NCBI GenBank assembly: GCA_946411635.1
Contig: CAMKES010000012.1
Coordinates: 1-63,341, forward strand
DNA length: 63,341 nt
Reading direction: 5' to 3'
Source: an uncultured Clostridia bacterium
Lineage (GTDB): Bacteria; Bacillota; Clostridia; Christensenellales; CAG-138
The position numbers were made by a program, and so were the translations under genes. This document shows, in pieces, positions 30,470 through 46,431 of this stretch (the stretch's first letter is position 1; the number at the start of each line of letters is the position of its first letter). Under the pieces are notes generated by a model. It ran no database searches, was not told the origin of the DNA, and worked only from the letters and a program-made list of their open reading frames with translations.

Positions 30470-31567
30470 TTATTCTTTTCCGTACAGCGCCTGCTTCAGA
30501 AGGATGCGGTTCTTTTCGAACTCCGGAAGCAGCGCGTATGAACCGTCCACGTTCAATTCGGTGTAGGAGCCGTCGAACGGCAGTCGGAGCGTGGCGAACG
30601 TCAGCTCGTCCGAGACCGCCATCTCGTATCCGACGCCGCGGAGCGTTTCGAAATCGACGTTCGTGCTGATGCTCTTGAAGATCGTGCGGAAGAACGGATA
30701 CAGGAACGTGCTGTCGAACTTGTCCTGCATATAGTCGAACGCGTCGTGCACGATCTCGACCTGCTTGTCCGCTCTGCCGAGGTCGCCCTTGTTGTCGGAC
30801 GTGCGGTCGAGCAGCAGCGTGACGATCTGTTTTCCGGACAGCTGCCGTCTTCCGGCGGTCAGGTCGGACCCGCAGGCGGCGTTGATCGTCGCGGCCTCCG
30901 CTTCGGTCAGCGTCGCGGGGATGCCGCCGATGTCGTCCGCAAGGATCGCAAGCTCGTCCGTGCCGGTGATGACGTAATTCTGGATATCCAGCTCAAAGAC
31001 GTCGTTGATCGTGTTGATCAGCATGCCGATGCCGCCGCGCGAATACGCGGTGTTCACACGCTTCCATTCGCTTTCGGAAAGCGGAACGAGCGTGTCGCGC
31101 GCGACCGAGACGACCGTGAATTTCTGCTGCAGCTGGTTATAGGACGCGATAAACATCATGTCCGTCTGCTTTTCCGACGAAGAGACCGAGCCGTTCTGCA
31201 CGACGATCAGCATGGTGAAGATGAACCGGTCGATCTTTTTCTGTTCGTAGATCGGCACCTCTTTGATCTCGCCGGACTCGTAATAGTCGGTGTCCTTGCT
31301 CATCGCTTCGTTGAACAGTTCCGCGTCGGGCGTGGGCAGCGCGTTCACGTCGATCGGACCGTCCTTGCGCTCCGCAAAGCCGGGACCGCACGAAGCGATC
31401 TTGAAGCCCTTGCTGTCACACGAGAAGAAGCGCAGGTCGCGGCACATCTGCACCTTGTTGTGCCCGACGATCGCGGCGAGCACGGCGAGCAGAAGGAACG
31501 CGATGCACAGCGAAAAGAAAGCGATCCGCAGTTTCCGGTTCGGTTTTTGCTGTTTTTCCGTTTCCAT
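30470..31567 (-). CDS. LCP-family (LytR-CpsA-Psr) glycopolymer ligase
   Basis: A 365-residue membrane protein with a cytoplasmic basic N-terminus, one transmembrane helix (about 13-35) and an extracellular LCP domain. Visible LCP signatures are TVVSVARDTLVPL, KRVNTAYSRGGIGMLI and the Arg-rich GDLGRADKQ. LCP enzymes transfer undecaprenyl-linked wall polymers onto peptidoglycan. Its location beside the glycopolymer operon (33988-44298) suggests it anchors that polymer. GAGGTGA precedes the ATG, and it ends the lipoprotein operon at a strong terminator. Confidence 0.85.
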   Translation of the reverse strand: METEKQQKPNRKLRIAFFSLCIAFLLLAVLAAIVGHNKVQMCRDLRFFSCDSKGFKIASCGPGFAERKDGPIDVNALPTPDAELFNEAMSKDTDYYESGEIKEVPIYEQKKIDRFIFTMLIVVQNGSVSSSEKQTDMMFIASYNQLQQKFTVVSVARDTLVPLSESEWKRVNTAYSRGGIGMLINTINDVFELDIQNYVITGTDELAILADDIGGIPATLTEAEAATINAACGSDLTAGRRQLSGKQIVTLLLDRTSDNKGDLGRADKQVEIVHDAFDYMQDKFDSTFLYPFFRTIFKSISTNVDFETLRGVGYEMAVSDELTFATLRLPFDGSYTELNVDGSYALLPEFEKNRILLKQALYGKE

Positions 31568-31691: not shown

Positions 31692-32798
31692 TTACTCCCC
31701 GTTGAACCGGTCCGCGTGCACGTTCGAAAGGTCGGGCGCGTTGCCTTCCGCATCGTATTCCGCAAACATCAGAAGATCCACGATGTTGCGGCCGGCGATG
31801 CCGTCTCCGTCCTTGTCCTTTCCGGACGGCGTGTTGATCGTTTTGCCCATGAACAGCATGACCGCGCTGTTGCCGCCGTCAAGGTTCATCGCTTCCGTAC
31901 AGCCGAGCGAAAGCATCAGGTCCGCCATTTCCTTTTCCGTGACGCCGATGGACGTCTTGGTGCGTCCGTCGACCGCCACGAGGATATAGTGTCCCGGCTC
32001 GCAGTATCCGAAAATGATGCGCGGATGCCGCTCGTTCTTCTTGAGGCCGGACGCGATCTCGCCGTTCTGGACGAGCACCGGTCCGAACTGCAGCGCGTGC
32101 CAGACGCCGCCGTGCGTTTTGTTTTCGTTGTTGTAATTGTAGGTCTGTTTCTTCGCGCGGTTGATCGTCTTGACCGTACCGTCGCGATAGATGATCAGCA
32201 CGCCGGAACGGAAGCGAATGTCGCTCTTTTCGACGTTCTTCTTGATCTGCACGCCGTTATGGATCACGAGGCCCGAATTCATCGTGCCGCTGACGCCGAA
32301 GATCGCGTGCTCGCGCTGTGCGAAGTGCTCCGGATCCTCGCGGCCCGAATTGAATTTTCCGTTGCCGATCCCCATCCGGAAGGTGTTGATGTTGCGGATC
32401 CAGACGTCCGCGACGTAATAGACGAGGCGGTTGTCCTCATCCTCGTGCCGCGTGATCGCAATGCGCAGCTCGTCGGACTGATAGCTGTAGTCCGCGCTGC
32501 CGCCGATATCGTGATCCGGGAAGCGGTCCTTCGAAACGTCGCCCTCCATCGGCGGGCGCGTGGTGATCGGCGTCGGTACGGGCGTCGGGTCCGGCGTCTG
32601 ATCCGGAAGCGCGCCTGCGGTATTTCCCGGTGCGGTGCTGCTGACGACGACGGTCTCCTCATCGGGATCGGCCGATGCAGGCGTCGCCGCGGAGACGATC
32701 TCCGTCGATTCGTCGTTTTGTCCGCCGCATGCGAACGTGCCGGCAAGAAGCAGCACGCACAAAGCGGCGGTGATGATTCTCTTATATTTTGTGATCAT
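31692..32798 (-). CDS. Phosphodiester-glycosidase-like (NAGPA domain) lipoprotein, copy 2
   Basis: A protein of about 368 residues. The signal ends LLAGTFAC, a lipobox, and a Pro/Thr-rich linker follows. The NAGPA-type domain shows DYSYQSDELRIAI, REHAIFGVSG, VAVDGRTKTSIG and AMNLDGGNSAVMLF. The family removes phosphodiester-linked sugars in animals; bacterial members are linked to exopolysaccharide metabolism. I chose ATG at 32798; a TTG at 32831 lacks a spaced ribosome binding site. It is paralogous to the next gene upstream. Confidence 0.82.
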   Translation of the reverse strand: MITKYKRIITAALCVLLLAGTFACGGQNDESTEIVSAATPASADPDEETVVVSSTAPGNTAGALPDQTPDPTPVPTPITTRPPMEGDVSKDRFPDHDIGGSADYSYQSDELRIAITRHEDEDNRLVYYVADVWIRNINTFRMGIGNGKFNSGREDPEHFAQREHAIFGVSGTMNSGLVIHNGVQIKKNVEKSDIRFRSGVLIIYRDGTVKTINRAKKQTYNYNNENKTHGGVWHALQFGPVLVQNGEIASGLKKNERHPRIIFGYCEPGHYILVAVDGRTKTSIGVTEKEMADLMLSLGCTEAMNLDGGNSAVMLFMGKTINTPSGKDKDGDGIAGRNIVDLLMFAEYDAEGNAPDLSNVHADRFNGE

Positions 32799-32827
32799 TT
32801 CGGTTTTGGTTTCCTTTCCGGAACGGA

Positions 32828-33841
32828 TCAATCCTGCGGCACACGGTCCGCAGTGATCTCATCCAGTGACGGTGCGTTCCCGTTTGCATCATATTCGGCA
32901 AACAGGAGCATATCCATCAGTTTTCTTCCGCCTTTCTCTTCTTCTTTGCTGTCGGGCTTCGGCGGATCATTGACGATCTTCCCCATGAACGTCATGATCG
33001 CGCTGTACCCGCCGTCGAGGTTCATCGCCTCTTTGCAGCCGAGCTCGGTCATGAGCTCGACCATCTCCAGATTGTTCATACCGATCGCATCCTTGCGCCG
33101 GCCGTCAACCGCGACCGCCACGTAATGGCCCGGTTCGTAATATCCGAAGATGATGCGCGAATGCCGGGTGGCATAGGTGTTGTAATTCGCATCGCTCGGC
33201 TTGCCGTCATGCACCAGCATCGGCCCGAACTGCCATGCGTGGACGATGCCCTTTTCCTGCGCGGCCGCAAGATCGAAGCTCGTCCGGCGCACCGTTTCCA
33301 TCGAGCCGTCGCGGTACAGGACCATGACGCCGGTATGCTTGTCGTCCAGTTTCTTTTTCAGAACACCGTCGTGGATCACGAGGCCCTTGTTGTAACTGCC
33401 GTTGATCGCCAGGATCGCGTGCTCGCGGGTCGAAAACGACTCCGCGTCTTCATTGCCGTGGTTGAACGCGCCGTTGCCGAAGCCCGCGCGGAAACAGCTG
33501 ATGTTTCGCATCCAGATATCCGCGACGTAGTAGATCGAGCAGATCTCCGGATCCTCGTACCGGCGGATCGCGATGCGCAGCTCGTCGGACTGATAACTGT
33601 AATCCGCGTCGACGCCGGTATCGTAATCCGGGAAGTTCTCAAAGCAGATGTCGCCTTCCTTCGGCGCGCGCGTCGGACGCGGCGTTGCCGTCGATTCGGG
33701 CGTCGCTTCGGCGACCGGTTCGGTTGCTGGCTTTTCCGAGGGCTCCGTGACCGGTTCTTCCTGCGTGTCGCGGCACGCGGCCGCGGCGATCAGCAGGCAG
33801 CCGAACAGGACCAGACATATCGTTTTTTTCAGAAGATCCAT
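32828..33841 (-). CDS. Phosphodiester-glycosidase-like (NAGPA domain) lipoprotein, copy 1
   Basis: A 337-residue paralogue of the downstream gene. The lipobox ends AAAAC (Cys23) and is followed by a Thr/Glu/Pro linker. Shared blocks include DYSYQSDELRIAI, REHAILAINGSYNKG, VAVDGRRKDAIG and AMNLDGGYSAIMTF. The LDGG loop is the conserved catalytic-region motif of the family. It is tethered to the outer face of the membrane. AGGAGGG precedes the ATG. It heads the operon that continues to the microprotein and the LCP ligase. Confidence 0.83.
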   Translation of the reverse strand: MDLLKKTICLVLFGCLLIAAAACRDTQEEPVTEPSEKPATEPVAEATPESTATPRPTRAPKEGDICFENFPDYDTGVDADYSYQSDELRIAIRRYEDPEICSIYYVADIWMRNISCFRAGFGNGAFNHGNEDAESFSTREHAILAINGSYNKGLVIHDGVLKKKLDDKHTGVMVLYRDGSMETVRRTSFDLAAAQEKGIVHAWQFGPMLVHDGKPSDANYNTYATRHSRIIFGYYEPGHYVAVAVDGRRKDAIGMNNLEMVELMTELGCKEAMNLDGGYSAIMTFMGKIVNDPPKPDSKEEEKGGRKLMDMLLFAEYDANGNAPSLDEITADRVPQD

Positions 33842-33987: not shown

Positions 33988-35136
33988 TTATTTTTTGATC
34001 AGCCGCTTCACGCCGTGCGCGAGTTTGCGCAGCGGTGCGATCCGGTACAGGCGCTTTTTGACCGCGCCCTTCAGAAGCCCGCGTTTGCGGTAATCGTTGA
34101 CGCGCCTGAGATCCGCGATCAGCCCGCGCGCCTTGTTCGCCGCGCTGCCCGTTCCCGCGACGCGGTCGAACCGCTTCTGCATCGCCGCGTCCACGGTGCG
34201 GAACTTCGGATCGCGCGAAAAGCGCTGCAGCTCCATGCGAAGACCTTCTTTGAGCGGCGTCAGCTCCGACTGCTTCATGCCGGTCGCGTTCAGGATCTTT
34301 GAGTTGTCGATCACGCGGTCGAGCATGCGGTCGTACTTGATCTGCCAGGGACGGCCCACGACCTCGCGGTACCGGTCGAGCGAAACCGTCTTGACCTTCA
34401 TGCCGAGAATGGATTGATAGATCTTCAGGATCTCGCCCCAGGTATGATGCTCCGCCGTCGCCGCGGTGTACGTTTCGCCGTACGCCGCCTCGTTCAGCAC
34501 GAGCCGCGCGATCATTTTGCCCACGTCGCCCGACCACGACATCGTCGCCTGTTTTCCTTTCATCTCTTTGGGGAAGATGATCGGCTTTTTCTTGAGCGCG
34601 CGCACGAGAAACTCGTTTGCTTCCATCGTACCGAGCTGGAACCGGTCGCCCGAATAGGTGATCGCGGGGCGGATGATCGTGAAGTTCTTCCGTCCGCAGG
34701 CCCGCAGCGCGTTTTCCTGCCGCGCCTTGGTGAGCCCGTATTCGTCGGTCTGCAGATACTCCGGATCGTCCACGCTGTCCAGAAGCCGCGGACTCTCCTC
34801 GGTGATCGGCTTTCCGTGATTGTCGCCGTACACGCGGTACGAGGACAGGAACAGATAGTGCTCCGTGCTCGAGACCAGCTTCTGAACGCGCGCGGCGAAC
34901 GATTCGGTCGTGTAGATCATGAAATCCACGATCGCGTCGAACCGCTCGTCGAGCAGCTCGTCAAGGAACGCGTCGTCCTTGGCGTTGCCCTGCAGATAGA
35001 CGACGCCGCGCTCGTTCGACGCGTGCGCCGAACGGCTCGTGATATACACCGTAAAACCGCGCTTTTTGAGCTCCGGCGCAAGGTACTGTCCGATCGCGCC
35101 GGTGCCGCCCAGCAGCAAAACCCGTTTCTCTTCCAT
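33988..35136 (-). CDS. NAD-dependent epimerase/dehydratase-like protein (extended SDR)
   Basis: A protein of about 382 residues. The Rossmann motif is LLLGGTGAIGQYL at the N-terminus. LFLSSYRVYGDN and YGLTKARQE give the S..Y...K active-site arrangement. A basic C-terminal tail (about residues 300-380, many Lys/Arg) follows the SDR core and is unusual for epimerases; it may bind the membrane or other proteins. I prefer ATG at 35136; a GTG at 35145 overlaps the upstream stop. It is last in the glycopolymer operon and probably modifies a nucleotide sugar. Confidence 0.8.
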   Translation of the reverse strand: MEEKRVLLLGGTGAIGQYLAPELKKRGFTVYITSRSAHASNERGVVYLQGNAKDDAFLDELLDERFDAIVDFMIYTTESFAARVQKLVSSTEHYLFLSSYRVYGDNHGKPITEESPRLLDSVDDPEYLQTDEYGLTKARQENALRACGRKNFTIIRPAITYSGDRFQLGTMEANEFLVRALKKKPIIFPKEMKGKQATMSWSGDVGKMIARLVLNEAAYGETYTAATAEHHTWGEILKIYQSILGMKVKTVSLDRYREVVGRPWQIKYDRMLDRVIDNSKILNATGMKQSELTPLKEGLRMELQRFSRDPKFRTVDAAMQKRFDRVAGTGSAANKARGLIADLRRVNDYRKRGLLKGAVKKRLYRIAPLRKLAHGVKRLIKK

Positions 35137-35141
35137 AGGCG

Positions 35142-38108
35142 TCACCCGATCGGACGGTTGAAGGCGCGCACGTTCGAGAGCGCTTCCTTCTCGTCCTCGG
35201 CGCTCGTGAAGACCTCGAACACGACGGGCTTATTGTCGAACTTCTTCGGATCGCGGTCGCAGAACGAACCGATCTGCGCGTCGAAGCTTTCCTTCGTGTC
35301 GGCGGTCATGTACGCGAAGCCCATCGACTCCGCCCAGCCCTTCGCGCTGCCGAAGTGGCCCTTTGCGGCGATCAGATCGTCGGTGTCGGAGCCCCAGAGC
35401 CGTTCGAGGCTCGTGTTCAGACGGAACTCCACGCCGCGCGAATTGTTGACGAGCAGGATGCGCAGGTTCTTTCCGACGTGGCGGTTGCCGAGCGCGTTCA
35501 TGTCATAGAAGAACGCGAGGTCGCCGAGCAGGCAGAACGAAAGCGTATCCGGATCCGCAAGCGACTGGCCGAGCGCCGTGGAAAGCGCGCCGTCGATGCC
35601 GAAGCCGCCGACGTTGCAGCTGACCGTCACGCTCGGATCGAGCGCGAAGAAGTTCATGCTGCGCAGCGAGTTCAGGATCGCAAGGTGCAGATAGCTGTGC
35701 TTCGGGATCTGCGCGGACAGCTTCGACGAAACGTAGATGTTCGAAAGCGGAACGGTGGGAAGCTTCGTTCCCGCGACCGATTCGCGGATCACGCGGTAGT
35801 ACGGGCTCGAGCCCTCCGCGTCCTGAAGATGCGTGAAGAAGAATTTCTCCGAGCAGAAGAACAGCTTTTCCACGATCTCCGCGCCGTGGCGGTTGTGGAA
35901 CTTGCGGTCCTCCGAGATGCGCCACACGCGCTTGCCGCGGAACAGGCGGCTCGCGCTGTAATCGCCGGAGACGGAGCCGAGATCGATCACGAGATCGGGC
36001 AGCTCCCTGAGCTCCGCAAGATCGCCCGCGACCGCGCTCAGCACGCGGTTTTTGCCCGCGTAGTTTGCGGTATGGTCGCAGAACACCGGCGCGTCGAGAT
36101 TTTCCGCGAAGCGCTCGATCGCCGCCTTCGTCGTCGCGTCGAACGGCTTGTGCGAGCCGATGAACAGCGCCACGCGCTTGCCCTTCATCGCCGCGATCAG
36201 CGCGTCCTCCGGGAAGTCCTCGGCGTCGTACACGTCGATCTTCTGCACGTCGGGCAGCTCCTTCGTCTTGAACGAATACAGGTTCCCGACCGGCAGGTTG
36301 ATATGCACCGGACCGGCGTCGTGCCGCGTCGCGGTATAGAACGCCTCGTTCAGCAGCTGCACGCAGCGGCGGTAGTCCTCGTCGTCCTTGATGAGCGGGA
36401 GGATCGCCGCAAACCGCTTGACGTCGTTCTGCGTCACGGTGCGGTCCGTCATCTGCGGCATCAGATCGCTCGGACACGGCGAGTGATGCTGGGACGTGAT
36501 CGCGATCACGGGAAGATTGCGGTAGTACGCCTCGGTCATGCCGGGCACGTAATCGCGCGAGGCCGTCGCGCCCGTGCACGAGATCACGACCGGTTCGCCA
36601 GTCGCAAACGCAAGCCCGCCGGCAAGGTACGCCGCGCCGCGCTCGTCGACCGCCGAGTAGACCTCGAAGAACGGGTCGAACTGCACCGCGCGCGCGATCG
36701 GCACGTTCGTGGTGCCGGGGGATACGACGATCTTCCGGATGTTGTATTTCTTGAGAAGCGCAAGGACGACCTGCGCGTTTTTATCGTCCGTATACATGTG
36801 CGTTCCTTTCTTCGCCGCTTCGATCTGCGCGCGGACCGGCACGGCCGGTGCGGCGGGCTTTTTCAGTTCCGGCTTCTTTTCGGGCGTCGCCGCCGTCTCG
36901 TCGGGCAGGTCCTGTTCCTTCAGGAAGGCGGGCTGTTCCTTTTCGCCGACGGCGAACTTCAGATAGCGCACGGATTCGGCGCGCAGAGCGGCAAGCGCTT
37001 TTTCCGCCTCGTCCCACTCGACCGGAAGATCGACGATGCCGTCGACGGCGTCCGTCTCCTCGGTATAGCGCGCGGAGAGCGTGAGCTTGTCGAGCAGCTC
37101 CGACACGCGGTTGCCCGTTTCCTTGTGCAGGATCGTGGCGAAGCGCTTATGAAACAGCACCGAAAAGACCGTGCCGTGGAACGAGTTGGTCACGACGTAC
37201 GCCGCGTTCTTGATATACCAGAGGAACTCCTCGGGCGAAACGATGCGGGAATCCTTGATCTGCCGGTTGCCCGCGTTCGGGTTGCCGTTGACGTCGATCA
37301 GATGCAGGCCGGTGCGCGCGGCGAGCTTTTTCGCCGCGATATTCACCTGGTTCTGCGCGGGACCCGGCATCGTATAGACGACGATGAACGGATTCTTTTC
37401 GAGCGGCTCCTTCCGGATCAGCTTTTCGTATACGGAAACGTCCGGCAGCAGCGTCGGGTCGACGTCGATGTGCATCGGCGTTTTCGGATCGGACGCGGCC
37501 ATGACGGGACGCATGAACTTGATCTCGCGCAGCGAAACGGCGTCGAGCTTTTTCAGCATCGGACCGATCTCCTTCTGCGCCGCTTTGGGATCGTCGAAGT
37601 ACGTGCCGACCGCATAGGTCATGCGCCTGACGTTTTTGCCGCCGAAGTCCATGAAGTACGCCGGATCGAACTTGCCGTCGGTCAGCTTGCTGTTCCAGAT
37701 CTGGTCGCTGCCCGCAAGATACAGATCGCATTTCGGCGGATGCGCGCGCAGCTGTTTGATCGTGCGGTACTTGCGCGTTTCATGCAGATGCGCCTTGCGG
37801 AACGCAGCGAACTTCTGCTCACGTCCCTTCCTGACCTTCGCGTTTTTCCACGAACGCACCGTATCGTAAAAGCCCTTCACGCCGTGATACGTGCGCGTCA
37901 CGAGGTTGCGCGCAGGCTCGTGCAGTTTCTTGTTCGCGTAGTAGACCGGATTCTTATACGATGCGTAGCGGTTCCAGTGATACCACGGGACGTAGTTGAT
38001 GACCTGCACGTCGCTGCCGAGCTCCTCGAGCTTCGACTCGAGCGCAAAGCACTGCAGCGCCGCCCCGCAGTTAAACGGGAAATGGAACGTGATAATGCCT
38101 ACCTTCAT
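35142..38108 (-). CDS. Polysaccharide pyruvyltransferase fused to a MenD-like ThDP-dependent enzyme
   Basis: A 988-residue fusion. Residues 1 to about 390 match polysaccharide pyruvyltransferases (GIITFHFPFNCGAALQ, LAGSDQIWN, VTNSFHGTVFSVLF). A Pro/Lys/Glu-rich linker (about 391-437) follows. Residues 438-988 form a complete ThDP enzyme: SPGTTNVP, catalytic Glu489 in AVDERGAAYLAGG, CTGATASRDY, and the cofactor motif GDLAFFYDMN (862-871) with NN at 888-889. The C-terminal half is closest in pattern to MenD and related 2-oxoacid enzymes. A ribosome binding site and Met438 inside the ORF could give the second enzyme alone. Its chemistry is unknown. Confidence 0.85.
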   Translation of the reverse strand: MKVGIITFHFPFNCGAALQCFALESKLEELGSDVQVINYVPWYHWNRYASYKNPVYYANKKLHEPARNLVTRTYHGVKGFYDTVRSWKNAKVRKGREQKFAAFRKAHLHETRKYRTIKQLRAHPPKCDLYLAGSDQIWNSKLTDGKFDPAYFMDFGGKNVRRMTYAVGTYFDDPKAAQKEIGPMLKKLDAVSLREIKFMRPVMAASDPKTPMHIDVDPTLLPDVSVYEKLIRKEPLEKNPFIVVYTMPGPAQNQVNIAAKKLAARTGLHLIDVNGNPNAGNRQIKDSRIVSPEEFLWYIKNAAYVVTNSFHGTVFSVLFHKRFATILHKETGNRVSELLDKLTLSARYTEETDAVDGIVDLPVEWDEAEKALAALRAESVRYLKFAVGEKEQPAFLKEQDLPDETAATPEKKPELKKPAAPAVPVRAQIEAAKKGTHMYTDDKNAQVVLALLKKYNIRKIVVSPGTTNVPIARAVQFDPFFEVYSAVDERGAAYLAGGLAFATGEPVVISCTGATASRDYVPGMTEAYYRNLPVIAITSQHHSPCPSDLMPQMTDRTVTQNDVKRFAAILPLIKDDEDYRRCVQLLNEAFYTATRHDAGPVHINLPVGNLYSFKTKELPDVQKIDVYDAEDFPEDALIAAMKGKRVALFIGSHKPFDATTKAAIERFAENLDAPVFCDHTANYAGKNRVLSAVAGDLAELRELPDLVIDLGSVSGDYSASRLFRGKRVWRISEDRKFHNRHGAEIVEKLFFCSEKFFFTHLQDAEGSSPYYRVIRESVAGTKLPTVPLSNIYVSSKLSAQIPKHSYLHLAILNSLRSMNFFALDPSVTVSCNVGGFGIDGALSTALGQSLADPDTLSFCLLGDLAFFYDMNALGNRHVGKNLRILLVNNSRGVEFRLNTSLERLWGSDTDDLIAAKGHFGSAKGWAESMGFAYMTADTKESFDAQIGSFCDRDPKKFDNKPVVFEVFTSAEDEKEALSNVRAFNRPIG
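36795..36809 (-). promoter_or_regulatory. Internal ribosome binding site and start inside the fusion gene
   Basis: Minus-strand AAAGGAA (36809-36803) precedes an in-frame ATG (36797-36795) by 5 nt, exactly at the junction between the linker and the ThDP domain. It may be a remnant of a separate gene or allow a free 551-residue ThDP enzyme. Confidence 0.6.
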
Positions 38109-39292
38109 TCCTGCTCTTCCTTTCCGTCCTGTTCTTCATTCTCTTCCGGATCCGCCTTTGCTTCCGGATCGTTCTTCGCCTCGTCTTCGGCAGCCTCGAC
38201 GGTCTCGACGATTTTGCCGCCCTTGAGCCTGTACTTCAGAATCCCAATCTTGCGCTTCACGGCCTTCATGCGGCTGACCGCCTTGTCCTTGATGAGCCAC
38301 AGCCGCATGGTGCGTTCAAGCTCCTTCGGATCTTTTTTCTTGATCGCCGCGCAGATGCGGTTCGTGAGACCCGACTTGGACTTGCGGTCAAAGGTGACGG
38401 AATTGATCACCTCCGGGAACTCCATCAGCTTCGCATACTCTTCGATCTTTTCCTCCTTGGACATGTCGGAACGCGCGATCTTCTGGCACGCCGACTTGAC
38501 CACGGTGAAGAAGATGTTCTTGAGCTTCGGAAGAAACTCTTTGAGGTCGTGCGATTTCAGAAGCTCGCAGCGTCTCTGATAGCCGTTTACGAGGAACTGG
38601 AACGTGTTCTTGCGGTAGCCCTTCGAGAGTGATTCCTCCATCTGACGGTAGCGGTACATCGATTCGCCGAGCGACGAGACCGTTTTGAGATGCGGGATCA
38701 CGTCCGCCATGAAGTTGCAGTCCTCTTCGTAGCTGATACTCGGATCAAAGCGCACGTTGTGCTCCATGAGAATGTCGCGGCGGAACAGCTTCGCCCAGAT
38801 GGAAACGCCGAACATATTCGTCCGCGGCACCGTATACAGCATGAGGTAGTGGCTCACGTCACGGAACATGGCGATGTAAAACCGCGTAAGCCGGTACGTT
38901 CTTTTCCAATTGTCGTTGAACCGTTCGAAGCCGCAGAGCACGAGATCCGTGCCGTACGTTTCGCCCGCTTTGACCATTTCCTCAAGATAGTTTTCCGTGA
39001 CGAGGTCGTCGGAATCGACGAACAGGATGTACTTGCCCTGCGCCGTTTCGATACCGATGTTGCGCGCGATCGAAACGCCGCCGTTTTCCTTGTGAATGAC
39101 GCGGAAGCGCGGATCCTTCGCCGCCGCCTCGTCGCAGATCGCGCCGCTGCCGTCCTTTGACCCGTCGTCGATAAGAATGGCCTCCCAGTTCTGATACGTC
39201 TGTGCCGTGATCGATTCCAGGCAAAAACCGAGATAGTTCTCAACGTTGTATACCGGAATGATGACGCTGACCAAAGGTTGATTCTGTTCCAT
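38105..39292 (-). CDS. GT2-family glycosyltransferase with acidic tail
   Basis: A 395-residue GT-A enzyme. VSVIIPVYNVENYL opens the fold, LIDDGSKDGS and FVDSDDLV give the nucleotide-sugar and DxD metal sites, and ENGGVSIARNIG is typical of GT2. The C-terminal part is helical and ends in an acidic tail of about 35 residues (DEAKNDPEAKADPEENEEQ). It probably adds one sugar to the lipid-linked polymer. It overlaps the fusion gene by 4 nt, and GAGGGGG precedes the ATG. Confidence 0.9.
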   Translation of the reverse strand: MEQNQPLVSVIIPVYNVENYLGFCLESITAQTYQNWEAILIDDGSKDGSGAICDEAAAKDPRFRVIHKENGGVSIARNIGIETAQGKYILFVDSDDLVTENYLEEMVKAGETYGTDLVLCGFERFNDNWKRTYRLTRFYIAMFRDVSHYLMLYTVPRTNMFGVSIWAKLFRRDILMEHNVRFDPSISYEEDCNFMADVIPHLKTVSSLGESMYRYRQMEESLSKGYRKNTFQFLVNGYQRRCELLKSHDLKEFLPKLKNIFFTVVKSACQKIARSDMSKEEKIEEYAKLMEFPEVINSVTFDRKSKSGLTNRICAAIKKKDPKELERTMRLWLIKDKAVSRMKAVKRKIGILKYRLKGGKIVETVEAAEDEAKNDPEAKADPEENEEQDGKEEQE

Positions 39293-39312: not shown

Positions 39313-40104
39313 TTATTTTTTGATTCCGAGTGTTCGTTTTTCCGCCATAAACGGATCGTATTCCGCGTAAACGTTCTCCGGCGTGTCGATCATTTTGATC
39401 TCGCCGTGATCGAGCCATACCGCTTTTTCGCAAAGCTCCAGAACCGGCTGCTTCGAATGCGAAACGAACAGCAGCGTCGTGCCTTTGTCGAGAAGCTCCT
39501 GGATGCGGGCGCGGCATTTTTCCTGGAACGCCGTGTCGCCGACCGCCAGCACCTCGTCCACGATCAGGATGTCCGGATCGACGATCGTCGCGACCGCAAA
39601 GCCGAGACGCGCGCGCATGCCGCTCGAGTAGTTCTTGATCGGCAGCTCCATGAAGTCCCACAGCTCCGCGAAGTTCACGATCTGCTCGTACTGCTCGCGC
39701 ATGAACTTGCGGCTGTGGCCCAGGACCGCGCCGTTGATGAAGATGTTCTCCTTTGCGGTGAGGTTCGGATCGAAGCCCGCGCCGAGCTCGATCATCGGCG
39801 CGATCGTGCCGTGCACCTCGACGGTGCCGCGATACGGCGAAAGAATGCGGCAGATGAGCTTCAGAAGCGTGCTCTTGCCCGCGCCGTTCGCGCCGATCAG
39901 CGCCCACGATTCCCCCTGATTGATCGTGAGATTGATGTTCTTCAGCGCGTAAAACTCCTTGAACCGGAGCTCGCGCTTCAGGAACTTGATGAAATACTCC
40001 TTCAGATTGTCGACCTTCTCGCCCGCGATGTTGAAGCGGACGGAGGCGTTGGTGAGTTTGATGCAGGGGCCGCCCTGCGTTCTTCCGATGATCGTTTCTT
40101 CCAT
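39313..40104 (-). CDS. ABC transporter ATP-binding protein for polymer export (TagH/Wzt-like)
   Basis: A 263-residue ATPase. Walker A is GANGAGKS, the signature is YSSGMRARLG, Walker B is ILIVDEVLAVGD and the switch His is in FVSHS. The N-terminal KFLKRELRFKEFYALKNI block is typical of TagH/Wzt. With the permease it moves undecaprenyl-linked teichoic acid or O-polysaccharide outward. It has no C-terminal carbohydrate-binding domain, so export need not depend on a cap structure. Confidence 0.93.
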   Translation of the reverse strand: MEETIIGRTQGGPCIKLTNASVRFNIAGEKVDNLKEYFIKFLKRELRFKEFYALKNINLTINQGESWALIGANGAGKSTLLKLICRILSPYRGTVEVHGTIAPMIELGAGFDPNLTAKENIFINGAVLGHSRKFMREQYEQIVNFAELWDFMELPIKNYSSGMRARLGFAVATIVDPDILIVDEVLAVGDTAFQEKCRARIQELLDKGTTLLFVSHSKQPVLELCEKAVWLDHGEIKMIDTPENVYAEYDPFMAEKRTLGIKK

Positions 40105-40114
40105 ACGCCTGCCC

Positions 40115-40933
40115 TCAGATGAATAGGATGAACCGGTTCTTGACGCGGTTAAAGGTGAACAGTCCGATGATCAGCATCGCGACCGCGCAGATCGCGCCGC
40201 GCAGCATCAGCACCCACGCCGACGGATCGATGCCGACCGTCTGGTATCCCATGATGAAGTACCGGAACTGCTGAATGAACATATACATCGGATTGAACCG
40301 GCGGATAAACACGCCGAGATCGCCGAGCTTGTCCGACATGAACCAGAAGATCGGCGTCATGTACATCCACGCAAGCGTGACGACGCTCCAGATGTTCCGA
40401 AGATCCCGGAAAAAGACCGTCGTCGCCGCCAGCAGAAGCCCGAGCCCGACACAGAACACGTACAGCTCGAGGATCGGCACGAGCCCCAGGAAGTTGATCC
40501 AGCGGAACGGCTCGCCCGTCGCGACCATAACGATCAGCAGCGCGCCGAGCGAAAGCACGAAATTGACCATGCAGCTCGTGACCTTCGAAAGCGTAAAGAT
40601 GTATTTCGGCACGTACGTCTTTTTCAGCAGCGACGCGCTTCCGACCACGGAGTTCATCGCCAGCGTCGTCGATTCGCGCATGAACGAGAACAGAATGTTG
40701 CCGCAGATCAGGTACAGCGGGAAGTTGACCTCCTTGCTGCGCTCGAAAATCCGCGTGAAAACGATCGCCATGACCGCCATCGACAGAAGCGGCGTCAGAA
40801 TGCTCCAGAGATAACCCAGAAAGCTCCTCCGGTATTTCAGCTTGATGTCGCGCTGCACGAGCAGCACCAGAAGATCCCAGTACTGGGCAAACTTGCGGAA
40901 CCGCTCCTTTGTAAGTTTCAGAAATTTTCTCAT
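40115..40933 (-). CDS. ABC-2 permease for polymer export (TagG/Wzm-like)
   Basis: A 272-residue membrane protein with six hydrophobic helices. The N-terminal amphipathic region VLLVQRDIKLKYRRSFLG leads into YLWSILTPLLSM, a hallmark of the TagG/Wzm group. It forms the channel for the glycopolymer with the ATPase encoded 10 bp downstream. It overlaps the preceding TagB/TagF-like gene by 4 nt, consistent with one operon. Confidence 0.93.
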   Translation of the reverse strand: MRKFLKLTKERFRKFAQYWDLLVLLVQRDIKLKYRRSFLGYLWSILTPLLSMAVMAIVFTRIFERSKEVNFPLYLICGNILFSFMRESTTLAMNSVVGSASLLKKTYVPKYIFTLSKVTSCMVNFVLSLGALLIVMVATGEPFRWINFLGLVPILELYVFCVGLGLLLAATTVFFRDLRNIWSVVTLAWMYMTPIFWFMSDKLGDLGVFIRRFNPMYMFIQQFRYFIMGYQTVGIDPSAWVLMLRGAICAVAMLIIGLFTFNRVKNRFILFI

Positions 40934-42126
40934 TTCGTTCCGATCATCTCCTTAATTGCTTCCGTCGTTCGTTCCGAACTGTTCGCATCGCGCAGCGTGA
41001 AGAACCGGTCGACCCGTTCTTCGTACTGCGGCTCCATCAAAAGTCCGTTTTCAACGATGCGGCGCATCGCGCCGATCGCATCCTTTTCGGTTTCGGCGAT
41101 CGGGCCGAAGCCGTCTCTGCCGTAGTCGAAATATCCCGTCGGAAGGTGTCCCTTCCGGTAGGTCTCCCGGTCGAACTGGTAATAGACGACCGGCTTTTTC
41201 ATGAACGCAAAGTCCATGTACACGCTTGAAAAATCCGTCACGAGCAGCGCCGCGGACCGGAGCAGCGCCGGCACGGAGACCTCGTCCCACTTTTTGACGG
41301 CAACGCGCGCCGACGCCGAGGTGAAGCACGTTTCGTACCGCGAAACATTGCGGTGCACGCAGAACACGGCGCGTTTGCCGGTCTCCTTCAGGAGCGCGTC
41401 GAGCGCGGGATCGTTCAGAAACGCGTCCCAGCCCTTAAAGTATTCGCTCTCGCGGAACGCCGCATCCGTTTTGCAGTCGCGTTCGAGCCACATCCGCCAC
41501 GTCGGCAGGATCAGGATGAGATCCGGGTCCGCCACGGCGTTCAAAAGATCGTCGAAACGGCAGAATCCGGTGTAGCGCACCACGCCGGGCGCGTAGCCGA
41601 ACGTGTCGCGGATAAATTCGTACTCCGGCTTCGCCGCGCAGCAGAACAGGCTGAGCCTGGCGTTTTCCGCATGCAGAAACGGCAGATCGTCCTTCGTTAC
41701 GCCGTGCTGCAGGAACACGCGCCGGTTTTTGAGAACCCCCAGCACGACCTCGAGCAGGTAGCACACGGCGGCGTTCGGCTTGCCGCCCTTCTGGCTCGAG
41801 ATATTGACCTCGGCGGCAAGGTAGTAGATCCAGTGCTTCAGCGTGCCGAAACAAACCGTGGGCCCGACCGCGTCCACCGCAGCCTTCGCGGGCGAGCGGC
41901 GGTCGATTGCGTAGACCGCGTCGATCTCCGGACGGTTCTTCCTGAGGTAGCGGAACAGCGCGAACGCGTTGTCCTGCGCCTCCTTCGCGTACTCGCACAG
42001 AAGCCACAGGTGCCTGCGCTTCCGTTTGTAGATCGCGGCCGGCAGCAGCGCGATCAAAAACAGGAAGAAGTGCCCGATGTCGCCGAACCGGATGCGTTTC
42101 AGTTTTGCAAACAGCGATTCCTTCAT
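40930..42126 (-). CDS. CDP-glycerol glycerophosphotransferase family protein (TagB/TagF-like)
   Basis: A 398-residue protein. An N-terminal hydrophobic stretch (about 16-30) may dip into the membrane. FLQHGVTKDDLP, LPTWRMWL and LVTDFSSVYMDFAF with VVYYQFD are the family signatures. Members transfer glycerol-phosphate or other polyol-phosphates from CDP-linked donors to wall polymers. This suggests a phosphate-containing, teichoic-acid-like product. ATG at 42126 overlaps the GT2 stop by 4 nt; the ribosome binding site is weak, so coupling is likely. Confidence 0.87.
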   Translation of the reverse strand: MKESLFAKLKRIRFGDIGHFFLFLIALLPAAIYKRKRRHLWLLCEYAKEAQDNAFALFRYLRKNRPEIDAVYAIDRRSPAKAAVDAVGPTVCFGTLKHWIYYLAAEVNISSQKGGKPNAAVCYLLEVVLGVLKNRRVFLQHGVTKDDLPFLHAENARLSLFCCAAKPEYEFIRDTFGYAPGVVRYTGFCRFDDLLNAVADPDLILILPTWRMWLERDCKTDAAFRESEYFKGWDAFLNDPALDALLKETGKRAVFCVHRNVSRYETCFTSASARVAVKKWDEVSVPALLRSAALLVTDFSSVYMDFAFMKKPVVYYQFDRETYRKGHLPTGYFDYGRDGFGPIAETEKDAIGAMRRIVENGLLMEPQYEERVDRFFTLRDANSSERTTEAIKEMIGTK

Positions 42127-42872
42127 AGCCAGTACCGTTTCACGCCGTGCAGGCAATAGCCCAGAAAACTGCCGATCCGCCGGAAAAAGCCGAGACCGAG
42201 ATGCCGGTACGTGTTCCACGTCATCCGCGCGGACTTCTTTTTATCGCCGGACTTCGATCCCTTCGAAACGCGGTAGCGCACGAGCGGCTCGTTGACGCCG
42301 ACCGCCTTTGCGCCGTCCTTCAGGATCCCGTACCAGCAGATCAGGTCCTCGTGCAGATCGCTGCGCTCCATCGGATGATCCGCCGCAAGCGTTTTTTTCA
42401 CGAGCACCGTGCTGGTGATCAGGTCGTTCCCCTTCAAAAGGCCGTTCGCCGTGACCGTTTCGGGCACGGAAAAGACCTTGCCGGTTTTGTTTCCCGCTTC
42501 GTCGATGCACGCCGCCGCGGTGTAGACGAGCGACGCGCCGGTGCATTCCGCCGTTTCGAGCTGGCGGGCAAGCTTTTCCGCTTCCCACGCGTCGTCGCTG
42601 TCCAGAAACGCGATCCATTCCGCTTCGGCGGCCCTCACGCCGGTATTGCGCGCGTTTGCGACGCCGGCGTTTTCGGAAAGCGCGATCACGCGGACGCGCG
42701 CGTCCTCCGTCCGGAGCCGTTCGAGCGTTTCCGGCGTATCGTCGCCGGAGCCGTCGTCGACCGCGATCACTTCGATCTCGCGGAGCGTTCCGTTCAGCGC
42801 GGAACGGACGGCCTCTTCGACGGTTTTCGCGCAGCGGTACGCGGGCACGACGACGCTGACGCGCGGGGTCAT
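42123..42872 (-). CDS. GT2-family glycosyltransferase
   Basis: A 249-residue GT-A enzyme, shorter than the other GT2 in the operon. VSVVVPAYRCAKTV, AVDDGSGDDT, AGVANARNTG and FLDSDDAWE mark the donor site. The basic C-terminus (KSGDKKKSARMTWNTYRHLG) may contact membrane lipid. It probably adds a sugar to the lipid-linked primer made by the PGT. GAGGAGG precedes the ATG, which overlaps the epimerase stop by 4 nt. Confidence 0.9.
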   Translation of the reverse strand: MTPRVSVVVPAYRCAKTVEEAVRSALNGTLREIEVIAVDDGSGDDTPETLERLRTEDARVRVIALSENAGVANARNTGVRAAEAEWIAFLDSDDAWEAEKLARQLETAECTGASLVYTAAACIDEAGNKTGKVFSVPETVTANGLLKGNDLITSTVLVKKTLAADHPMERSDLHEDLICWYGILKDGAKAVGVNEPLVRYRVSKGSKSGDKKKSARMTWNTYRHLGLGFFRRIGSFLGYCLHGVKRYWL

Positions 42873-43687
42873 TTGTCCGCCTCCTCTTTCGGCAGCGGAA
42901 GCTCAAAAAGGTCCTCGTAGGTCAGATCGCCGAACGCCTTTTTGCCGGCGCGGGTAAAGCGCCGCAGCGCCCGGATCGCCGGGTTCAGAAGCTTCGAACG
43001 GCGGACCGGCTTGTTCTGCGCCCTGCGCATCCGCTCCATCAGATCGGCCGTGGAAAGCGGCGCCGCCTCCTGCGGGAAAAAGACGCCGGAGCGCGGCGCG
43101 TCGATATAGCCCTTCAGCGCTTCGCACAGCGTGTCGATCGACACCATGCTGCGGCGGTTTTCAAAATCGGGACAGAACGGCAGGCGGTTCGCGATCCGTT
43201 CGAGCCGCGCGGGATTGCCCTTCGCGCCGGGACCGAACACCATCGGCGGACGCAGGATCGTGACGCGGAACGTCCCGTCGGCAAGCGCCGCGATGCGCCG
43301 TTCCGCCTGAAGCTTGCTCTTGCCGTACTGCGTGTCCGGCGCGGGAACGGTATCCTTCGTGATCGTGCCGGTCACCTTTCCGTACACGCTCATCGAGCTG
43401 AAAAACACGAACTGCTTCACGCCCTCGCGCTTCGCCTGTTCGGCGACGGCATACGCAAGATCGCAGTTGACCGTTTCGTACAGCGCGGGCGTTTCCGCCG
43501 TTTCCTTCCGATGCACGATCGCGGCGACGTGGACGATCGCGTCCGCGCCGCGAAACGCGTATTCGCCGGGCGTGTGTCCCTTCATCGCGAGCGTTTCCAC
43601 GGCGTAATCGCCGGGAAACCGCGCAAGGTACGCTTCCAGATGCGTGCCGATATAGCTGTCTTCACCCGTGATCAGGATCCGTTTCAT
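42869..43687 (-). CDS. NAD-dependent epimerase/dehydratase (extended SDR)
   Basis: A 272-residue SDR protein. ILITGEDSYIGTHL is the Rossmann motif, and VFFSSMSVYG and YGKSKLQAE provide the Ser and YxxxK residues. It resembles the short epimerases or reductases next to PglC-type transferases (WbpV/Fnl-like group). It probably makes the first sugar donor, such as a UDP-HexNAc derivative, used by the neighbouring PGT. ATG at 43687 follows GGAGG and overlaps the PGT stop. Confidence 0.86.
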   Translation of the reverse strand: MKRILITGEDSYIGTHLEAYLARFPGDYAVETLAMKGHTPGEYAFRGADAIVHVAAIVHRKETAETPALYETVNCDLAYAVAEQAKREGVKQFVFFSSMSVYGKVTGTITKDTVPAPDTQYGKSKLQAERRIAALADGTFRVTILRPPMVFGPGAKGNPARLERIANRLPFCPDFENRRSMVSIDTLCEALKGYIDAPRSGVFFPQEAAPLSTADLMERMRRAQNKPVRRSKLLNPAIRALRRFTRAGKKAFGDLTYEDLFELPLPKEEADK

Positions 43688-44298
43688 TCGTCCTCCGTCC
43701 GATGCTCGTTCGCATGCTCGCCTTCCTGAAAGCCCTTTCTCGTCAGGACCGCGACGACCGTTTTCCAAAGGCACGTCAGATCCGTCCGAAGCGTCACGTG
43801 CGCGGCATACATGCCGTCCAGCTCCGCCTTGTCTTCGATCGAAAGCACGTCGCGTCCGTTGACCTGCGCAAGGCCGGTCAGCCCCGGGCGCACGTCGTTC
43901 GCGCCGTATTTTTCACGCTCGGCGACGAGATCGTCCTGATTCCAGAGCGCCGGCCGCGGTCCCACGATCGCCATCTTGCCGGTGAAGATCTGCAGAAGCT
44001 GCGGCAGCTCGTCGAGACTTGTTTTGCGGAGGATCCGTCCCGCCCGCGTGATCCACTGCTCCGGATTCTTCAGAAGATGCGTCGGCACGTCGTGCGGCGT
44101 ATCGATGCGCATGGTGCGGAACTTCATGATCTCAAACGTCGTGCGGTACCGCCCGATGCGCTTCTGCCGGAACAGCACGGGTCCTTTCGAATCCAGCTTG
44201 ATCCAGAGGCAGAGGATCAGAAACAGCGGCGACAGGATCACGATCGCCAGTCCCGACAGTACGAGGTCGAAAAATCGTTTCCAAAAATTCCGGTACAT
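43684..44298 (-). CDS. Small phosphoglycosyl transferase initiating glycan synthesis (PglC-like)
   Basis: A 204-residue bacterial sugar transferase of the small monotopic type. RFFDLVLSGLAIVILSP is the re-entrant helix region. FRQKRIGRYRTTFEIMKFRTM, GRILRKTSLDELPQL and VGPRPAL are the core motifs, with catalytic Asp-Glu in SLDEL. It moves a sugar-1-phosphate from a UDP donor to undecaprenyl phosphate, starting the polymer. ATG at 44298 follows GGAG; longer in-frame extensions cross the promoter. It is first in the operon. Confidence 0.92.
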   Translation of the reverse strand: MYRNFWKRFFDLVLSGLAIVILSPLFLILCLWIKLDSKGPVLFRQKRIGRYRTTFEIMKFRTMRIDTPHDVPTHLLKNPEQWITRAGRILRKTSLDELPQLLQIFTGKMAIVGPRPALWNQDDLVAEREKYGANDVRPGLTGLAQVNGRDVLSIEDKAELDGMYAAHVTLRTDLTCLWKTVVAVLTRKGFQEGEHANEHRTEDE

Positions 44299-44374
44299 AC
44301 GCACTCCGTTTTTTTCGCGCAGCAAAGCAGGCGTTTTCAGCGCATACTTCTTGCGACTATAATACCTTAATCGT

Positions 44375-44403
44375 ATCATAGCACAGCGTCCGGGAAAAAG
44401 CAA
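44375..44403 (-). promoter_or_regulatory. Promoter of the glycopolymer operon
   Basis: Minus-strand TTGCTT (44403-44398), 17-bp spacer and TATGAT (44380-44375), about 77 bp before the PGT start. A TATTAT slightly downstream is an alternative -10 without a good -35. Confidence 0.6.
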
Positions 44404-44468
44404 CCGCAAGGGGTCGGGTTCGTGTAAACATAATAAGAACAATTCCCCGTTTTTCGTTGCGTTTCCTC

Positions 44469-44498
44469 TTGACAAAGTCCCCGTTTTCGCGGTATCGT
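44469..44498 (+). promoter_or_regulatory. Promoter of the glycine riboswitch and gcv operon
   Basis: A perfect TTGACA (44469-44474), an 18-bp spacer and TATCGT (44493-44498). The start site would be near 44505, roughly 30 nt before the first aptamer. Confidence 0.65.
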
Positions 44499-44533
44499 AT
44501 ACAAGGAAACAACCGCATATCGTCCCGAACGAT

Positions 44534-44700
44534 GGGCCCGGGAGAGGTCGTGAAAGCACGGCGCCGAAGGGGACTGCAGAAACTCTCAGGCAGAAGGATC
44601 GGACCCGGACGGGACTCCGGAAAGGAAAGGGCACGTCCCTTTACGCCGATGGTGCAACCGCCTTCCGCGCGGGAATCTCTCAGGCTAAGAACGGAGGCGC
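44534..44700 (+). ncRNA. Tandem glycine riboswitch
   Basis: Two adjacent aptamers precede gcvT. Aptamer I shows GGGAGAG (44540-44546), GCGCCGAAGGGG (44561-44572) and AACTCTCAGGCAGAAGGA (44581-44598), ending near GGACTCCGG. Aptamer II shows ACGCCGATGG (44643-44652), GCAACCGCC (44654-44662) and AATCTCTCAGGC (44674-44685). CTCTCAGGC is the glycine-aptamer hallmark and its recurrence defines the tandem form. Glycine binding should favour expression of the cleavage operon. The 3' end overlaps the terminator stem at 44698-44700, giving a direct switch. The 484-bp gap between the PGT and gcvT is filled by this element and two promoters. Confidence 0.93.
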
Positions 44701-44731
44701 AAGGTACGGGCGTACTTTGCGTTTTTCTTTT
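44698..44731 (+). terminator. Riboswitch expression-platform terminator
   Basis: Stem CGCAAGGTAC/GTACTTTGCG (one G-U pair) with a GGGC loop is followed by TTTTTCTTTTT. The left arm begins inside the end of aptamer II, so ligand binding and terminator formation can exclude each other. A second G+C hairpin (CCGCGGC/GCCGCGG, 44733-44749) sits between it and gcvT. Confidence 0.85.
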
Positions 44732-44782
44732 TCCGCGGCGAGGCCGCGGACGCATTTCAAAAACGATTCAAGGAGGACTCTC

Positions 44783-46024
44783 ATGAGCGAACTCAAACGG
44801 ACTCAACTGTACGACGCGCACGTTGCGGCGGGCGCAAAGATGGTCGACTTCGGCGGCTGGGAAATGCCGATCCAGTATCCCGAAGGCATCGTCGCGGAAC
44901 ATCTGTACACCAGAAGCGCATGCGGACTGTTCGACGTGTCCCATATGGGCCGTCTGCTGATCGAAGGACCGGACCGCACGGCGTTTTTGCAGCACGTGCT
45001 TTCGAGCAACGTGCTCGCGCTCGGTCTCAACCAGGCGCAGTACTGCATCATTCCCGCCGAGGACGGCAGCGCGGTCGACGACGCGTATCTGTACCGCTTC
45101 GAGGAGGAACGGTTCCTGCTCGTCGTCAACGCGTCGAACACCGATAAGGACCTCGCGTGGTTTGCGCCGATCGTAAAGAACTACGACTGCACGATCCGGA
45201 ACATCACGAACGAAACCGTTTCGATCGCGGTGCAGGGTCCGAAGAGCGAAGCGATCCTGAAGACCCTCGCGGGCGTCGACGAGGTCACCAAGCCCGCGCG
45301 CAACAACCTTTCCACGCTGATGATCGAAGGCCGCAAGGTCCTCGTTTCCAGAACGGGCTATACCGCGGAGCCGATCGGCTACGAGCTGTTCCTCGACAAC
45401 GCGGATGCGCACTGGATGTGGAACCGCCTGATCGAGCTCGGCGGCAAGCCGGCGGGCCTCGGCGCGCGCGACACGCTCCGCATGGAAGGCATGCTCCCGC
45501 TGTACGGCGACGAGATGGGCGTCGACGAAGCCGGCAATCCGATGCCGATCTTCGCGCTCGCGCTCGCAAAGTTCGCGGTCTCCTTCGATGAAGCGAAGGG
45601 CGATTTCGTCGGCCGCGAAGCGCTCAAAAAACAGGCGGCGGCGCAGGCGTGCTTCAAGGCGAAGGATTACAATCCCGAAGCGATGGCGGCGCTGCCCATG
45701 CGCGTGCGTCCGATCGCGCTCGTCGACCGCGGCGTCATGCGGCACGGCATGGAAGTCTTCCGCAACGGCGAGAGGATCGGCTGGGTCACCAGCGGCACGA
45801 GCATTCCGTACTTCATGACCGAAGGCGAAGGCGCGGACGTGAAGCTCCTTCCCGAGACCGGCAAGCGCGCGATCGGCATCGCGTATATCCGGTCCGACGT
45901 TCCGGTGAACGGCGAGGTCGAGGTCGACGTGCGCGGCAAGCGTCTGAAGGCCGTCATTCCGTCGAAGCATATCACGAACAACGTACCGCCCTACGTGGTG
46001 CCGGTCGTTTATAAAGCGAACTAA
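44783..46024 (+). CDS. gcvT: Glycine cleavage system T protein (aminomethyltransferase)
   Basis: A 413-residue THF-dependent aminomethyltransferase. VDFGGWEMPIQYPEGI, GLFDVSHMGR and GARDTLRMEGMLPLYG are family hallmarks, and the C-terminal barrel ends in SKHITNNVPPYV. It takes the aminomethyl group from lipoyl-H protein, releasing ammonia and forming methylene-THF. ATG at 44783 follows AAGGAGG. It lies under the tandem glycine riboswitch. Confidence 0.97.
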   Translation: MSELKRTQLYDAHVAAGAKMVDFGGWEMPIQYPEGIVAEHLYTRSACGLFDVSHMGRLLIEGPDRTAFLQHVLSSNVLALGLNQAQYCIIPAEDGSAVDDAYLYRFEEERFLLVVNASNTDKDLAWFAPIVKNYDCTIRNITNETVSIAVQGPKSEAILKTLAGVDEVTKPARNNLSTLMIEGRKVLVSRTGYTAEPIGYELFLDNADAHWMWNRLIELGGKPAGLGARDTLRMEGMLPLYGDEMGVDEAGNPMPIFALALAKFAVSFDEAKGDFVGREALKKQAAAQACFKAKDYNPEAMAALPMRVRPIALVDRGVMRHGMEVFRNGERIGWVTSGTSIPYFMTEGEGADVKLLPETGKRAIGIAYIRSDVPVNGEVEVDVRGKRLKAVIPSKHITNNVPPYVVPVVYKAN

Positions 46025-46053
46025 ATCCAAAAAACATTCAGGAGGATACAAGT

Positions 46054-46428: not shown

Positions 46429-46431
46429 CGC

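Follow-up and report, generated by a model that had tools for sequence, protein, structure and literature searches.

A PF04230 domain fused to a MenD-like thiamine diphosphate enzyme in a rumen Clostridia bacterium, and a candidate three-enzyme module for glycan decoration

The fusion gene and its two halves

The window analysed here is a stretch of 63,341 nucleotides from an uncultured Clostridia bacterium (assembly GCA_946411635.1, contig CAMKES010000012.1), and its subject is a minus-strand gene at 35142-38108 whose 988 codons plus stop, as given by the open reading frame (ORF) list and the translation, contain no internal stop. The encoded protein carries a polysaccharide pyruvyltransferase domain (PF04230), a linker and an enzyme half dependent on thiamine diphosphate (ThDP) that resembles MenD. 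This architecture had been proposed in an initial annotation, which gave no strand; the frame and the Pfam and NCBIfam matches bear it out on the minus strand, and every residue it named is present (Glu489, GDL at 862-864, NN at 888-889, SDQIWN and TNSFHGTVFSVLF). The parts of the gene are as follows.

35142..38108, minus strand: fusion gene, 988 aa, PF04230 domain, linker and MenD-like ThDP enzyme (ORF, Pfam, NCBIfam); intact in 12/23 genus genomes
37128..38072, minus strand: PS_pyruv_trans (PF04230) match, residues 13-327 (Pfam); GT-B fold in a separate prediction of residues 1-400
36798..36947, minus strand: linker, about residues 388-437; variable in the alignment of genus fusions, predicted local confidence (pLDDT) <50 at 405-424
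36795..36797, minus strand: Met438, in-frame ATG at the junction and possible internal start; present in 10/12 fusions
35145..36797, minus strand: MenD-like ThDP half, residues 438-988 (Glu489, Gln552, Arg816, Gly862-Asp863-Leu864, Asn888, Glu894), by sequence, NCBIfam, Protein Data Bank (PDB), residue alignment and fold

In the Pfam search that had been suggested as a check, the PF04230 match reaches 97 bits against a gathering cut-off of 25.3 and TPP_enzyme_N (residues 445-543) 65.6 bits against 26.8; no match to the middle and C-terminal TPP families is reported at E 0.001. These and the NCBIfam matches come from the minus-strand protein, the one covered by the family scan; a 1074-aa open frame lies opposite on the plus strand (35355-38579) and is probably a shadow of codon bias. 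The predicted full-length model has a predicted template modelling score (pTM) of 0.60 and overlays on MenD with a root-mean-square deviation of ~18 Å across the whole ThDP half; no domain arrangement is claimed for this reason.

The fusion is real: full-length, stop-free copies occur in 12 of the 23 genus genomes (G000, G001, G003, G007-G013, G016, G021), which rules out an assembly artefact. The 11 further copies are 69-79% identical to the window protein and lie on contigs labelled uncultured Clostridia, mostly ruminant-derived, with one Christensenella; none has a stop or frameshift at the junction near ~36.8 kb, so that neither restriction to one assembly nor interruption in relatives, both of which the initial annotation had named as grounds for doubt, is found. 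A family-level search confines the ThDP half to this genus (12/103 genomes), in frames of 984-1286 aa throughout. It is possible that a separate ThDP half is translated from Met438 as well; pairing to the anti-Shine-Dalgarno sequence upstream of this codon ranges from -4.7 to -10.9, mostly about -5.6, only modestly below the value at other internal Met codons (mean -3.6, standard deviation 2.8, n=151). Two genus fusions, L008 and L009, lack the ATG, and their ThDP half therefore cannot start at codon 438.

The call of a MenD-type enzyme holds for the second half: its best NCBIfam match is MenD TIGR00173 (155.9 bits, residues 444-850; 158.2 bits in a whole-genome MenD search), under the family cut-off of 244.2, and its best PDB match is again MenD, apparently the closest protein in sequence and fold. 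A study of Listeria monocytogenes MenD names Glu56, Gln119, Ile436, Asp459 and Asn486 as binding ThDP (PMC12312563); the ThDP residues E489, Q552, I838, D863 and N888 are kept in all 81 aligned family sequences, which argues against the loss of cofactor binding that had been raised as a further ground for doubt.

The substrate residues of MenD are mostly replaced. In the 2-oxoglutarate carboxylate site (Ser408, Arg412, Arg431) the window retains only the Arg412 equivalent; the Arg431 position is Val in 73/81 sequences (window Val833), that of Ser408 is Leu in 73/81 (window Leu812), and that of Asn434 is Phe in 74/81. The isochorismate-site residues Arg35 and Arg108 are Thr467 and His541 in the window; across the family the Arg of the MenD SRS motif becomes Thr or Gln in 74/81, and the Arg108 equivalent is Gln, His or Asn in 66/81. 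Glu894 is found in 80/81 sequences, against Ile in all four MenDs compared. A tree was built from 76 of the 84 sequences gathered, the other 8 having been set aside; in it the family forms one clade separate from the four MenDs with support 100/100, the MenD branches being flagged as long. Among six carrier genomes tested, five hold a canonical MenD (348-433 bits) alongside the module enzyme (148-177 bits) and the sixth has the module enzyme only; the window's genome has no match above the MenD cut-off and one TPP_enzyme_N gene besides the fusion.

Genes that accompany the ThDP enzyme

The fusion gene abuts or overlaps a downstream gene for an extended short-chain dehydrogenase/reductase (SDR), considered the third member of the module. 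Of the 23 genus genomes, the 12 that carry the fusion also carry this SDR, and the other 11, several of which are incomplete, have no match to it at E 1e-20; the window SDR has no match among PDB sequences at 1e-4. Two of the 12 SDR matches show in-alignment stops (G016:C41:49948-50934, G001:C20:32882-33919), for which shortened genes, alignment past the gene end and assembly errors are candidates. The initial annotation, sound on the fusion itself, overlooked both this SDR and a widespread module of separate genes.

A contig scan with ThDP halves gave 290 relatives, of which the best 79 loci were kept, so that counts are biased toward near relatives; taking away 11 genus members and adding Ruminococcus albus L034 leaves 69 loci from outside the genus. 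Cultured carriers among the relatives include a Marinobacter, a Cyclobacterium and a Herbinix. A reductase stands within two genes of the ThDP gene in 63/69 (35 extended SDR, 27 classical SDR and one aldo-keto reductase, the last a swap seen at L113); by one profile, a homologue of the window SDR adjoins the ThDP gene in 34/69 and a classical SDR in 21 more. PF04230 genes occur within three genes in 60/69 loci, as a first type in 53 and as a WcaK-like type in 7 others, never together (6/7 of the latter confirmed by Pfam). With the first profile sets SDRs sit almost only at offset +1 or -1 and first-type PF04230 genes mostly at +1 or +2; offsets 4-7 on both sides hold one PF04230 gene and no SDR. 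A gene of ~510 aa recurs in 33 loci, often upstream of the ThDP gene; its representative has no Pfam match, and a Wzx-type flippase is a guess.

Wider counts require care: the 10/391 genomes of the window's class include divergent members, since L125-L128, of ten places outside the window, lack several diagnostic residues, and a figure of 113/395 for Bacteroides-class genomes was not used because its threshold lets canonical MenD through (one of the canonical MenDs counted above, at G528:C1, scores 380 bits there). None of fifteen pattern matches on viral contigs is a relative, and a DNA search of E. coli with the ThDP gene of Vibrio jasicida found nothing.

The module genes are also joined in other ways. 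Profile searches detect five SDR-PF04230 fusions (L047, L049, L051, L052, L054), one ThDP-PF04230 fusion with the order reversed relative to the window (L053) and one classical SDR-PF04230 fusion (L090); L047, L053, L054 and L090 are supported by Pfam in addition. By its ThDP half the genus falls within the SDR-PF04230 lineage (support 100/99 for the grouping with L047, L048, L049 and L054) but the genus PF04230 domain stands apart from that lineage's; holding the 17 rows together is rejected by the approximately unbiased test (p 0.0015), for a group picked after the trees were seen and a PF04230 tree with long branches. From this discordance it seems that the window lineage had its PF04230 partner replaced by a distant one and then fused anew. 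Repeated fusion and replacement would suggest that the three functions serve one substrate. The sequences show a recurring module of three parts (PF04230 domain, MenD-like ThDP enzyme, NAD(P)-type reductase) that have been fused in different ways.

Three further loci carry unusual arrangements. At L126 (1165-4341, minus strand) a 1059-aa frame joins an aldo/keto reductase, a 4Fe-4S domain and a MenD-like ThDP enzyme; its ThDP part lacks the diagnostic residues of the module and shares with MenD an Arg at each of positions 467, 541 and 833. The frame was dropped as a module architecture, standing as an unexplained separate fusion. At L062 (6290-8749) an 820-aa frame with a WbsX glycosyltransferase and a WcaK-like PF04230 domain lies two genes from the module ThDP gene. 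The ThDP and SDR genes of L034, on R. albus 7 plasmid pRUMAL01, cluster with genes annotated as three LicD, a class V aminotransferase type and a cytidylyltransferase type; the cluster resembles phosphonate-tailored glycan loci.

The surrounding locus

The fusion belongs to a minus-strand gene run from ~44634 to 33988 that encodes a sugar transferase, an epimerase, two family 2 glycosyltransferases (GT2), a CDP-glycerol glycerophosphotransferase family protein, an ATP-binding cassette (ABC) exporter, the fusion and the SDR; the fusion gene overlaps the upstream GT2 gene by 4 bases. Assignments below are by Pfam unless stated.

43684..44634, minus strand: bacterial sugar transferase (Bac_transf), start uncertain
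42869..43774, minus strand: NAD-dependent epimerase/dehydratase, start uncertain
42123..42872, minus strand: GT2 glycosyltransferase
40930..42219, minus strand: CDP-glycerol glycerophosphotransferase family protein
40115..40933, minus strand: ABC-2 type transporter permease
39313..40104, minus strand: ABC transporter ATPase
38105..39292, minus strand: GT2 glycosyltransferase, directly upstream of the fusion
33988..35145, minus strand: extended SDR (Epimerase family), third module member, in the same 12/23 genomes; start is GTG 35145 or an ATG just past the fusion stop
30470..31567, minus strand: LytR-CpsA-Psr protein (family match), possible wall ligase for the polymer

Judged from gene content, this would be a wall-glycopolymer locus. 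Just past the operon, beside the LytR-CpsA-Psr gene, two adjacent proteins of the NAGPA (phosphodiester glycosidase) family are encoded at 31692-33841 on the minus strand; on the other side, next to the polysaccharide genes, four plus-strand frames (44717-49145) resemble, by eye, a glycine cleavage system. Three other roles were set aside: anchoring of surface-layer homology (SLH) proteins through CsaB-like pyruvylation, as the genome (95.7% complete) has no SLH match; phosphonopyruvate decarboxylation, as the genome has no match to phosphoenolpyruvate (PEP) mutase; and defence, as there is no PADLOC match.

Proposed chemistry, alternatives and known systems

The fusion is proposed to catalyse two consecutive steps of one glycan decoration, with the SDR encoded by the next gene supplying a third. 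With PEP as donor, the PF04230 domain would place an enolpyruvyl group on a hydroxyl of the sugar, which is probably lipid-linked; the ThDP enzyme would then decarboxylate pyruvate and add the acetyl carbanion to the CH2 of the enolpyruvyl ether in a Stetter-type 1,4-addition, so that the sugar would come to carry 2-hydroxy-4-oxopentanoic acid in ether linkage, the arrangement of lenose; reduction of the 4-ketone by the SDR would turn this acid into 2,4-dihydroxypentanoic acid, still ether-linked. Once decorated, the unit would be built into a wall glycopolymer, with the operon's ABC transporter as its exporter, and fusion would keep the intermediate close to the second active site. That the fusion carries out consecutive steps of one glycan modification is considered highly probable; the exact sequence of enolpyruvyl transfer, acetyl 1,4-addition and ketone reduction, each step inferred, is given an even chance. 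The broader idea, of a widespread and unrecognised ThDP class that performs a Stetter reaction on surface sugars (PEP and pyruvate yielding C5 keto- or hydroxy-acid ethers) with an enolpyruvyl-making PF04230 branch and an exchangeable reductase, the rumen fusion being one of several one-chain versions, is advanced tentatively, just short of even balance. The earlier suggestion, that one sugar may bear two linked decorations derived from 2-oxoacids, comes close to this scheme.

The scheme is favoured because reductase and PF04230 genes associate with the ThDP gene in most loci outside the genus, because fusions occur in several arrangements, because the window's lineage seems to have had its PF04230 partner replaced, and because fusion and SDR share the same genus genomes. 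MenD performs a 1,4-addition on isochorismate, and such an addition is proposed here since the second half appears nearest MenD; pyruvate is the putative donor since most of the MenD distal-carboxylate site is lost (Arg431, Ser408 and Asn434 equivalents). Ketone reduction is suggested by the exchange of reductase types among extended SDR, classical SDR and aldo-keto reductase, and use of PEP by the WcaK-like replacements, which carry the Arg-x-His of known PEP-using enzymes in 7/7. The acid of lenose also supports the scheme, as it corresponds to an enolpyruvyl ether plus an acetyl carbanion at the CH2; by our count its carbons equal the three of PEP plus an acetyl (pyruvate minus CO2). In the Plesiomonas shigelloides O37 O-antigen cluster (within GenBank MN115821-MN115829), a 'MenD' gene (orf12) adjoins a 'WcaK' gene (orf13), and the two are jointly assigned to D-lenose, (2S)-O-(4-oxopentanoic acid)-alpha-D-Glc (PMC9723277).

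Several observations weigh against this chemistry. We know of no PF04230 enzyme with an enol ether as its product. Where Arg-x-His has its Arg (CsaB Arg306, Pvg1p Arg337) the window has Ser309, and the first-type proteins likewise have Ser; the catalytic His (CsaB His308, window His311) is invariant in 60 aligned sequences. In comparisons with the predicted structure of the PF04230 half, epimerases and glycosyltransferases score highest and Pvg1p slightly lower. Arg816 corresponds to MenD Arg412, which touches the 2-oxoglutarate carboxylate, and is kept in 80/81, so that 2-oxoglutarate stays a candidate donor. No PF04230 gene lies within three genes in 9/69 loci (L048, L057, L065, L078, L097, L103, L105, L111, L114) and no reductase within two in 6/69 (L053, with one at +3, L089, L106, L111, L114, L115). 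The characterised PF04230 enzymes CsaB, WcfO and Pvg1p are described as ketal makers in a review (PMC6801904). The O37 genes are separate and likened here by annotation; in the section that assigns them (PMC9723277) the assignment is stated without experiment and no reductase is named.

Among the alternatives, a YerE-like C-branching is unlikely but survives best: a keto sugar would receive an acyl group from the ThDP half, the resulting side-chain ketone would be reduced by the SDR, and the PF04230 domain would separately add a pyruvate ketal. Less probable again is a route in which the ThDP enzyme and reductase first make a small hydroxy acid, or an activated form, which the PF04230 enzyme attaches in place of a PEP-derived unit; the Ser at the PEP-binding Arg position and the GT-B fold, which suits other donors, are consistent with this, but the WcaK-like replacements keep Arg-x-His, and the 10 representatives scanned from recurring neighbour clusters include no evident activating enzyme. 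The proposed scheme with 2-oxoglutarate as donor, which would give a longer dicarboxylic side chain, is improbable; MenD uses 2-oxoglutarate and Arg816 is kept, but the other carboxylate-site positions have become Val, Leu and Phe in 73-74/81, and lenose requires an acetyl donor. A role in menaquinone synthesis, with the ThDP half as a plain MenD (SEPHCHC synthase, its best named family), is scarcely credible and was rejected on the half's sub-cut-off score, altered isochorismate-site residues, separate clade and the canonical MenD present in five of the six carrier genomes tested.

Among the matches listed from the open-access literature, most subscription journals lying outside the search, none describes the fusion, the module of three parts or the chemistry proposed here; in the parts available, a 2019 pyruvyltransferase review (PMC6801904) lacks the terms 'fusion' and 'multidomain' and a review of ThDP enzymes forming tertiary alcohols (PMC12247030) the term 'MenD'. 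The literature already covers PF04230 enzymes, MenD, SDRs and the pairing in Plesiomonas; there is a fair chance that the enzymology here is new. If the proposed scheme is true, polysaccharide-locus genes of ~10 phyla (counted by record title, many in metagenome bins), easily mistaken for menaquinone MenD and ketal pyruvyltransferases, would form one pathway with a predictable acidic product, and surface glycans would become better predictable from sequence. It would also supply a natural catalyst that adds acyl groups 1,4 to acrylates bound to sugars, and one that exists as a self-contained fusion. On the broader idea, many genes called menD or pyruvyltransferase would be reassigned, and the reaction would represent a new bond-forming logic in polysaccharide synthesis. 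In related bacteria, the work that probably falls to the single chain of the rumen bacterium is divided between separate genes lying side by side.

Compared with MenD, the fusion's ThDP half shares the three-domain ThDP fold and the cofactor residues, but most donor and acceptor residues are replaced, the clade is separate and its genes lie in polysaccharide loci. With the ketal pyruvyltransferases CsaB, WcfO and Pvg1p the first half shares the family match, the GT-B fold and the invariant His; it differs in the Ser for Arg and in its fusion to a ThDP enzyme. YerE-like enzymes are likewise ThDP enzymes that modify surface sugars, yet they C-branch keto sugars, and the fusion's half appears nearest MenD. 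The initial annotation knew of no described system with this architecture, and none of the papers listed describes the fusion; as separate genes, Plesiomonas O37 offers a published pair of neighbours, one annotated MenD and the other WcaK (PMC9723277). There too the pair lies in a surface-polysaccharide cluster and is linked to an acid ether of a sugar; the ketone stays in lenose, whereas in the proposed scheme it would be reduced by the SDR.

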